Positions 3,232-63,170 of a stretch of DNA of 64,000 nucleotides are shown here, one piece after another. This stretch comes from Volvariella volvacea V23 (lineage: Eukaryota > Basidiomycota > Agaricomycetes > Agaricales > Pluteaceae). The stretch is from assembly GCA_000349905.1 (NCBI GenBank), contig KB722737.1, positions 2,470,925 through 2,534,924 on the forward strand, read 5' to 3'. The notes beneath the pieces are model-generated. The model worked only from the letters and a program-made list of their open reading frames with translations, was not told where the DNA came from and did not search any database. Made by a program: the position numbers and the translations under genes. Every line of letters starts with the position of its first letter. Within the stretch, counting starts at the first letter, position 1.

Positions 3232-3543
3232 ATGTTCAACTTGAACCGTCTTGTTGCCTTCTTCGTCCTCTTTGTTGCATCTGCCGCAGCCCTTCCTGTC
3301 AGTCATCTAGCCCTGGGCGCTTGCTTCTATGCCATTCGTTGCTAACGCTGGACGTTTTGGTTGCACTCTTATTAACAGGTTGCGGAACCCATATCTGACG
3401 AAGTCCTCCCCAGGGGAGGTGGCGGTGCTGACTGGCGTCGTGGTAGTGGTTCTGCTGATTGGAGGCGGGGAAGTGGCTCCGCTGACTGGAAGAGAGGTAG
3501 CGGAAGTGCAGACTGGAGGAGAGAAAATCCTCTAGTCGATTGA
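3232..3543 (+). CDS. Small secreted repeat precursor, predicted Kex2-processed (KEP-like)
   Basis: Predicted 76-residue secreted precursor, not assigned to a named family. Exon 1 is 3232-3297 and exon 2 is 3379-3543, joined across an 81-nt intron (donor GTCAGT, branch-like GCTAAC, acceptor AACAG). Exon 1 encodes 22 residues with a classic signal peptide: hydrophobic core VAFFVLFVASAAA, then a likely cleavage site. After a short acidic pro-region come four head-to-tail 9-residue units at residues 35-43, 44-52, 53-61 and 62-70 (nt 3415-3522). Three read GSGSADW plus RR or KR; the first reads GGGGADWRR. A tail ENPLVD ends the protein. Each unit ends in a dibasic Kex2-type site, so processing would release four short peptides ending in ADW. 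The units use different codons almost throughout, which argues that the peptide is conserved and not a recent DNA duplication. No CAAX end, so it is not a basidiomycete lipopeptide pheromone. Function unknown. Without splicing the frame stops after 38 residues. Confidence 0.72.
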
Positions 3544-61805: not shown

Positions 61806-63003
61806 GTGCAATTCTTTTGCTCGCCTCTGCCACAAATGGAAGTCAGTGTCAATGACGAAGAATGAGCGAGAAAAGACAAACCGGGACATCAGTACTTGGT
61901 GTGCCCACCTCGAGCCGCCAACAGGGAAGCAACATGACGAGGCATGCTCTCGTATAGCTTGTCCAGAGCCTCCTGGGAGAACAAGTACCACTCCTCCTGT
62001 AGTGCCTCCCAGAATTCCTCTTTATTGTGTGGGAGGGGGTTGCAGGCACAAATACGAGCATCGAGCTGTTGCCAAACGTGCTCGATGATGTTCATATCTG
62101 GGCTGGATGGTGCCCAGGGCAACCGACAGACCTTTTTCTTCTCGAACCAGGCCTTCGCAACCCCACTGGTGTGCTTGAGATCATTATCTTGCTGGAATAT
62201 GGGTGCAGTCTTCCCAGAACACTTCATGCCAAAGTCCTTCAATATCCCAAGATATGATTCCTGCAAGATATTGACATAGCCAGGTCCATCCATGATCCTG
62301 TCAATGCAATGAAGTCGGCCCACCCCCTTTGATGTAATGCACCCCCACACCATCACCTTGCCATCACCATGCTTCACCATCTTCTTTGTGAATTGTTGAT
62401 CAAGTTGCTGCCCAGGCTTAATCCAGCAATATTGGTGGCCATCCAACTTGAAAAGCATGAACTTCGACTTGTCTGAAAAAATGACCTGCTTCCAGTCCTC
62501 AACAGTCCATGTGGAATGAGCAAGTGCCCAATCAAGGCACTTCTGGCAGTGGACCTTAGAAAGGTAGGGCTTGGACCTCTGGACATGGCAAATAAGTTCA
62601 TTCTCCTTCAAGTGACATGCAATCATGAATTGCAATAGATCTGGGAAGGCCTTCTGGACCTTGGTCACATTGGCTGCCTCAGTTGTAGCAAGAATACATG
62701 CAGCAACCCAGACCTCACAGGCATCCATCTTGTGGAGACGACCAGTCTTGGGACAGACATGATGATAGTCCTCAATTTTCTCAAAGCATTGGATGATGTG
62801 AGTGACTGTGGTGTGGTGGAGGATGAACTTGTTGGCAATGAGCTGGGTCCTGTCCCCACAGTGGTGGGACTCACCAATGCATGCAACCTTTGTTGGGGAG
62901 GTGTAAATCATGAGTATGCAAAAGATAGAGCTGTCCAAAGCAAATTTGCAAGTAGGAGAGCAAGGAGGCTGACCTGATCCCCCCATGAGCATAAGTATTG
63001 CAC
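61806..63003 (-). mobile_element. Tc1/mariner-like DNA transposon
   Basis: A 1.2-kb element bounded by imperfect inverted repeats: 61806-61829 on the plus strand reads GTGCAATTCTTTTGCTCGCC inward, and 62987-63003 reads GTGCAATACTTATGCTC inward from the right. It contains one transposase gene on the minus strand. Clear TA target duplications are not visible directly at these two edges, so the outer limits are uncertain; the left end may instead be the CAGTG repeat at 61615. Confidence 0.65.
61889..62992 (-). CDS. Tc1-family DDE (DD34E) transposase
   Basis: Cut-and-paste transposase, about 367 residues, with an unbroken frame. Start: ATG at 62992 (or 62986) lies within the right terminal repeat; the longer open frame to 63109 runs outside the element and is not used. 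The N-terminal half is the DNA-binding helix-turn-helix region (around VTKVQKAFPDLLQFM). The DDE domain shows the first catalytic Asp in QVIFSDKSKFM, a WGCIT block, the second Asp in FQQDNDLKHT and the Glu in SPDMNIIEHVW, with 34 residues between the last two: DD34E, typical of Tc1. A C-terminal LYESMPRHVASLLAARGG matches family ends. All catalytic residues are present, so the protein could be active. Codons are not broken by introns. Confidence 0.88.
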   Translation of the reverse strand: MLMGGSGQPPCSPTCKFALDSSIFCILMIYTSPTKVACIGESHHCGDRTQLIANKFILHHTTVTHIIQCFEKIEDYHHVCPKTGRLHKMDACEVWVAACILATTEAANVTKVQKAFPDLLQFMIACHLKENELICHVQRSKPYLSKVHCQKCLDWALAHSTWTVEDWKQVIFSDKSKFMLFKLDGHQYCWIKPGQQLDQQFTKKMVKHGDGKVMVWGCITSKGVGRLHCIDRIMDGPGYVNILQESYLGILKDFGMKCSGKTAPIFQQDNDLKHTSGVAKAWFEKKKVCRLPWAPSSPDMNIIEHVWQQLDARICACNPLPHNKEEFWEALQEEWYLFSQEALDKLYESMPRHVASLLAARGGHTKY

Positions 63004-63094
63004 CTGTCAGCGACCGCGTCAAGCACTCGCGTGACCAGGGATCAGGAATATAAAGAATAGATAAAGGATAATAAATAGAGAGGAAATAATAATA

Positions 63095-63170
63095 TGTCAT
63101 AAAGGTCATAAGAGGTCATAGGCGTCATGGAGGTCGTGAGGGTCATAAGAATCGTGAAAGGTCATGAAGG
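63095..63170 (+). repeat. Degenerate tandem repeat of GGTCATAA-like units
   Basis: About seven imperfect copies of an 8-10-nt unit (GTCATAAA, GGTCATAAGA, GGTCATAGG, CGTCATGGA, GGTCGTGAG, GGTCATAAGAATC, GGTCATGAAG) lie end to end on the plus strand. No coding potential. Possibly part of a retroelement LTR or its flank. Confidence 0.6.

Follow-up and report, generated by a model that had tools for sequence, protein, structure and literature searches.

Gene structure and precursor layout

The window, a 64-kb stretch forming the terminal part of contig C2 (G000:C2:2470925-2534924) in the Volvariella volvacea assembly searched here (35.4 Mb, 54 contigs), carries near its start a short two-exon gene for a repeat precursor (Table 1). 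Its spliced product is a 76-residue protein, 100% identical over its full length to AX16_005664 (P0001), a hypothetical protein of V. volvacea WC 439 that is itself an NCBI gene prediction and is therefore consistent with the splicing rather than proof of it. To that extent, the single 81-nt intron given in a preliminary description of this DNA was recovered. Seven GT-AG joins (45-150 nt) could bring the frame of the repeat together with an ATG lying upstream, and the join at 3298-3378 is the only one of the seven with a GTNNGT donor, while its acceptor and its CTAAC are common to four of them. This branch-like CTAAC begins at 3342, 36 bases ahead of the last intron base, and moving the intron boundaries by one base leaves the protein identical. 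Judged from its sequence, the locus is a well-formed gene.

Table 1. Features of the AX16_005664 gene in window coordinates, with the parts of the precursor listed in their order from start to stop
Feature	Position	Strand	Sequence or content	Basis
Exon 1	3232..3297	+	MFNLNRLVAFFVLFVASAAALP, signal-peptide-like, cut perhaps near ASA/AALP	sequence, hydropathy
Intron, 81 nt, phase 0	3298..3378	+	GTCAGT donor, CTAAC, TTAACAG acceptor	matches NCBI prediction
Exon 2	3379..3543	+	leader, four repeat units, tail, stop	
Leader	3379..3414	+	VAEPISDEVLPR, single Arg at its end, immediately ahead of unit 1	
Unit 1	3415..3441	+	GGGGADW-RR	sequence
Unit 2	3442..3468	+	GSGSADW-RR	sequence
Unit 3	3469..3495	+	GSGSADW-KR	sequence
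Unit 4	3496..3522	+	GSGSADW-RR	sequence
C-terminal tail	3523..3543	+	ENPLVD and stop	sequence

The core ends in A-D-W before KR or RR in 4/4 units, and both the units and their four dibasic codon pairs are exactly those given in the preliminary description. All units begin with GS or GG, X-Ala and X-Pro (the STE13 signature) being absent after the dibasic sites. Neither GSGSADW nor GGGGADW contains Tyr, and the computed [M+H]+ of GSGSADW is 679.268, with m/z 619.247 for GGGGADW. Searches of Pfam and of PDB sequences with the precursor gave no match, and in our judgement a short repeat precursor of this type would be largely disordered.

KEX2-processed repeat proteins (KEPs) were defined in 2019 and are common in fungi (PMC6339444), with 7878 of them counted in 1345 of 1461 surveyed strains (PMC7329392). 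We applied the criteria given in the methods of Le Marquer et al. (PMC6339444), leaving out their FIMO step. Cutting the precursor behind KR/RR produces five fragments, at least four being asked for, and the three GSGSADW copies (21 of the 76 residues) provide the at least three similar fragments that should cover at least 15% of the length; cutting at KR/RR alone leaves unit 1 (GGGGADW) attached to the leader. The criteria also include an N-terminal signal peptide without any other membrane segment, for which hydropathy gives a putative signal peptide, a hydrophobic core, LVAFFVLFVASA, with a mean hydropathy of 2.77, preceded by an N-terminal Arg.

Conservation of the repeat

Compared in pairs, the units are alike at 17-20 of 27 bases and at 2-5 of nine codons, yet at 6-9 of nine residues. 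Because bases and codons have diverged between units while residues agree, the repeat is no recent DNA copy and is kept at the peptide level, as first proposed; the earlier wording that the codons differ almost everywhere was slightly strong, in that they largely differ but are shared at 2-5 positions in each pair. Between units 2 and 4, eight of the 27 bases have changed but none of the nine residues, which speaks against the recent copying that the preliminary description had named as a refutation. None of 200,000 random sets of eight base changes kept all nine residues of this pair, under a model that presumes equal substitution rates and serves as a guide only. A clear excess of silent over replacement change was found in 5/6 unit pairs (pS 0.71-1.00 vs pN 0.05-0.20), the pair of units 1 and 3 being without it (pS 0.38 vs pN 0.32).

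A scan of all six frames of the window for at least three consecutive similar fragments delimited by dibasic sites returned one place, AX16_005664. The same type of scan returned none in 60 first-order Markov windows and none in three 10-kb stretches upstream.

Relatives and other loci

With AX16_005664 alone as query, a protein search retrieved only the protein itself among 1193 candidates, up to an E-value of 1. Probes holding published -AADW cores gave two matches among 1036 candidates, one of them AX16_005664, and a further search with -AADW probes gave four among the best 8000 candidates ranked by shared words. The relatives comprise P0002 (JGI), with three copies of SGTGDSSAADW; P0003 (Lentinula edodes F5051DRAFT_437315), with three of SGT[NS]EGSAADW; P0004 (JGI, ENA), with cores ending in ASW, ADW, AEW and AQW; and P0005 (Stygiomarasmius scandens), with FRSADW repeats. 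P0004 and P0005 also carry cores without the ADW end. The ADW-KR of these relatives is there by construction, as they were selected by probe, while the probes contained nothing of the signal peptides, the leaders or the single Arg.

All four present the same order as AX16_005664, namely a signal-peptide-like start, a short leader, a single Arg and Trp-KR units. In an alignment of the five precursors, in which the first unit of P0005 is our own reading, 5/5 have a hydrophobic start that closes with A-x-P and a lone Arg adjoining the first core, and R34 is an invariant column in all five. P0002 is listed with an N-terminal extension, and a start at its Met40 would fit the others. The annotated P0003 ends inside a fourth SGTNEG unit followed by unrelated sequence, perhaps a gene-model error, and its cores differ from the published core of L. 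edodes KEP 2599.

The single Arg points to a monobasic cut at the end of the leader, by which the first core (GGGGADW in AX16_005664) would be freed. Compared with the -ADW peptides of Lentinula and Pleurotus, AX16_005664 suggests a core in which the N-terminal half varies while A-D-W and the cut site are kept. Proteins with ADW-dibasic repeats exist, the lack of homologues with this spacing having been named beforehand as a ground for rejection; common descent of P0002-P0005 with AX16_005664 is not proven, since AX16_005664 alone retrieves only itself and the relatives were found with -AADW probes. Used as queries against the genome, P0004 and P0005 gave nothing convincing (best E 0.185 and no match, respectively) and missed the window gene too, so that paralogues could escape such queries as well.

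The genome was also searched for tandems of the pattern D-W-[KR]-R ... W-[KR]-R, with the pattern read backwards as control. The GACTGG form gave 20 matches against 19 in the control, and the GATTGG form 19 against 10. A second W was in frame in 14 of these 39 matches, and 6 of the 14 passed a dibasic filter: three correspond to the window gene, one to a second KEP on contig C25, and two are further candidates.

This second Trp-ending KEP (C25:345204-345767, minus strand, L020) starts with MRTNFLALILASVLAATHVAAAPV and has two likely introns (GTACGT...CTAG and GTAAGT...ATAG). Its cores end in PPW, PAW or PDW (e.g. GPPAW, AAPPPW, IPDW and PSPPAW), and X-Ala starts occur behind some of its KR sites. 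As in AX16_005664, its first intron is of phase 0 and falls where the signal-peptide-like stretch ends, two genes being too few for a claim of conservation. It resembles the Coprinopsis cinerea KEPs 490115 and 447393, whose cores are given as GPPAPSW and QYKAPSW in PMC9769878.

Processing machinery and gene neighbourhood

Contig C3 carries a kexin gene, with S8 and P-proprotein matches 0.4 kb apart and with the catalytic motifs DDGLDY, HGTRCAG and HGGTSAAAP, which we take to be marks of kexins. S10 carboxypeptidase matches are also present in the genome, as is one gene of the DPPIV type (DPPIV_N). With this equipment, the signal peptide would bring the precursor into the secretory pathway, where kexin would cleave behind each RR or KR and probably behind the single Arg of the leader, and a KEX1-type carboxypeptidase would remove the basic residues. 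STE13 trimming would not be expected, because no unit begins with X-Ala or X-Pro. The predicted secreted products are three copies of GSGSADW and one of GGGGADW, linear and with a free C-terminal Trp. When KEPs were expressed in Pichia, products of single-Arg cleavage were observed (PMC9769878).

Neighbouring genes that were tested gave WD40 (one a Prp19 WD40), TPR/SGTA, Myb and carbonic anhydrase domains and, for a gene downstream, an MCM domain. At the other end of the window, near the contig end, a 408-residue open frame on the minus strand (61889-63115) is DDE-transposase-like; its Pfam DDE_3 match (E 1.3e-5) scores 25.5 bits, where the curated cut-off is 28.6.

Discussion

We consider it probable, at roughly 85%, that AX16_005664 is an agaricomycete-type KEP from which linear -ADW peptides are secreted; the gene, its layout and its conservation at the peptide level are seen in the sequence, processing and secretion being deduced. 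Its predicted layout of signal peptide and Kex2/Kex1-cut repeats is that of yeast alpha-factor and the ascomycete alpha-pheromones, from which it differs by the lack of a Pfam match and of STE13 spacers. In L. edodes, KEP 2599 holds seven copies of SGTGEASAADW. Mass spectrometry of fruiting bodies has revealed this peptide and likewise MSGVAADW and SGVAADW from Pleurotus ostreatus KEP 1091723 and P. eryngii KEP 1439342; the identical -AADW ends of the shiitake and oyster mushroom peptides were remarked on by the authors (PMC9769878). The L. edodes precursor shares with AX16_005664 the tandem cores, the KEX2-type organisation and the C-terminal -ADW, whereas its core has 11 rather than seven residues, ends in -AADW rather than -SADW and occurs in seven rather than four units. 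The Pleurotus KEPs likewise have a short core that carries S-G close to its start and ends in A-D-W, but they have X-Ala/X-Pro spacers (STE13 motifs; PMC9769878), which the Volvariella units lack. In addition, an XSDW repeat has been described in Basidiomycota KEPs, likewise a repeated core ending in D-W, with S-D-W instead of A-D-W (PMC6339444).

The peptide had been called new-looking, without a known precedent for its core, and this holds for the exact core only, given the published -ADW endings (SGTGEASAADW and SGVAADW, PMC9769878) and XSDW repeats (PMC6339444). GSGSADW and four related strings led to no fungal paper, judged by title, in a full-text search whose reach ends short of supplementary tables, and Volvariella volvacea together with AX16 led to no paper. 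Volvariella is unnamed in the main text of PMC6339444, PMC7329392 and PMC9769878, whose supplements may list the gene. The GSGSADW core is thus apparently unreported, while its kind is already known from the published -AADW and XSDW examples.

According to PMC9769878, little is known of what KEPs do. For GSGSADW and GGGGADW, we give about even odds to a role outside the producing cell, as an extracellular signal or as peptides for interacting with other organisms, in which the shared C-terminal A-D-W would be the recognised end. Such a role fits best because of this common end, the variable N-terminal part and the C. cinerea KEPs without axenic phenotype, the latter being taken by their authors as a hint at the biotic environment (PMC9769878). 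In the same work, knocking out six C. cinerea KEPs had no visible consequence for phenotype, and the synthetic peptides tested were not antibacterial (PMC9769878), which gives a signalling role no direct support.

A special case of the KEP reading is a quorum peptide that acts inside the cell after re-import by an oligopeptide transporter, the route that Opt1 provides for the Cryptococcus peptide Qsp1. Like GSGSADW, Qsp1 (NFGAPGGAYPW) is small, comes from a basidiomycete, contains Gly and ends in Trp (PMC5959073, PMC7537855), and an OPT oligopeptide transporter gene lies upstream on the same contig (C2:2461722-2463735), its last match about 10.4 kb from the start codon and its exons giving the two best of the 40 OPT matches listed for the genome. 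However, four or more unrelated genes stand between it and AX16_005664, OPT matches occur at no fewer than nine places in the genome, and the linkage is a single one in a neighbourhood inspected after the fact. Furthermore, Qsp1 differs in sequence and is matured extracellularly by Pqp1 (PMC7537855). We regard such re-import as improbable.

The product could also be a modified, cyclised RiPP of the dikaritin type, comparable to ustiloxin, with UstYa or tyrosinase supplied in trans. Dikaritins such as ustiloxin and phomopsin have the same precursor layout, and the genome holds at least four UstYa (PF11807) matches among those listed, on C12 and C23, and at least nine tyrosinase matches, on C1, C4, C6 and C28. 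A Tyr in the core is a defining dikaritin feature, which AX16_005664 does not have, and among the best candidates scored no UstYa or tyrosinase match falls on C2, leaving the gene without a linked UstYa match. Moreover, of 1680 Basidiomycota KEPs just 103 have a DUF3328 gene nearby (PMC7329392), and the agaricomycete KEP peptides detected, -AADW peptides included, were linear and minimally modified (PMC9769878). Cyclisation is therefore very unlikely in our view, and a linear peptide would most likely be the product, as the UstYa and tyrosinase matches found are all on other contigs. The preference for a free linear peptide over a cyclised one, already expressed in the preliminary description, is supported by this genome-wide placement; the window by itself had been a weak basis for that argument, with the gene a mere 3.2 kb inside its edge.

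That description had left the choice between a signal and a surface-active peptide, and here the signal or interaction role is favoured. A surface-active or wall-coating function is suggested by the Rep1 peptides of Ustilago, which come from a precursor of the same kind, and by the Gly/Ser-rich core of AX16_005664. That core has only seven residues, with one Asp and one Trp, whereas Rep1 peptides are amphipathic and, at 37 residues (PMC6339444), far longer, so that we give this function very low odds too. Finally, it is hardly credible that the open frame is spurious or the gene dead and the repeat a product of chance, even for a short gene known here from sequence alone, in view of the absence of similar repeats from 60 simulated windows, the dominance of silent differences in 5/6 unit pairs and the other precursors that share its layout.

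Beyond the secreted linear peptides proposed here, the -ADW peptides might form a conserved family of mushroom hormones, with a species-specific N-terminal part, a common A-D-W end and a dedicated transporter or receptor, by which they are taken up or sensed; the Volvariella gene, free of STE13 spacers and with the strongest OPT match of the genome about 10 kb away, would represent such a system at its simplest. We offer this as a speculative and rather unlikely extension. AX16_005664 adds a short core, from a cultivated edible mushroom, to the -ADW peptides so far seen in shiitake and oyster mushroom. The ADW end with its cut site provides a precise search motif, and 679.268 a precise mass, for probing this class of peptides. 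A receptor or uptake route, if found, would open peptide signalling in mushrooms.
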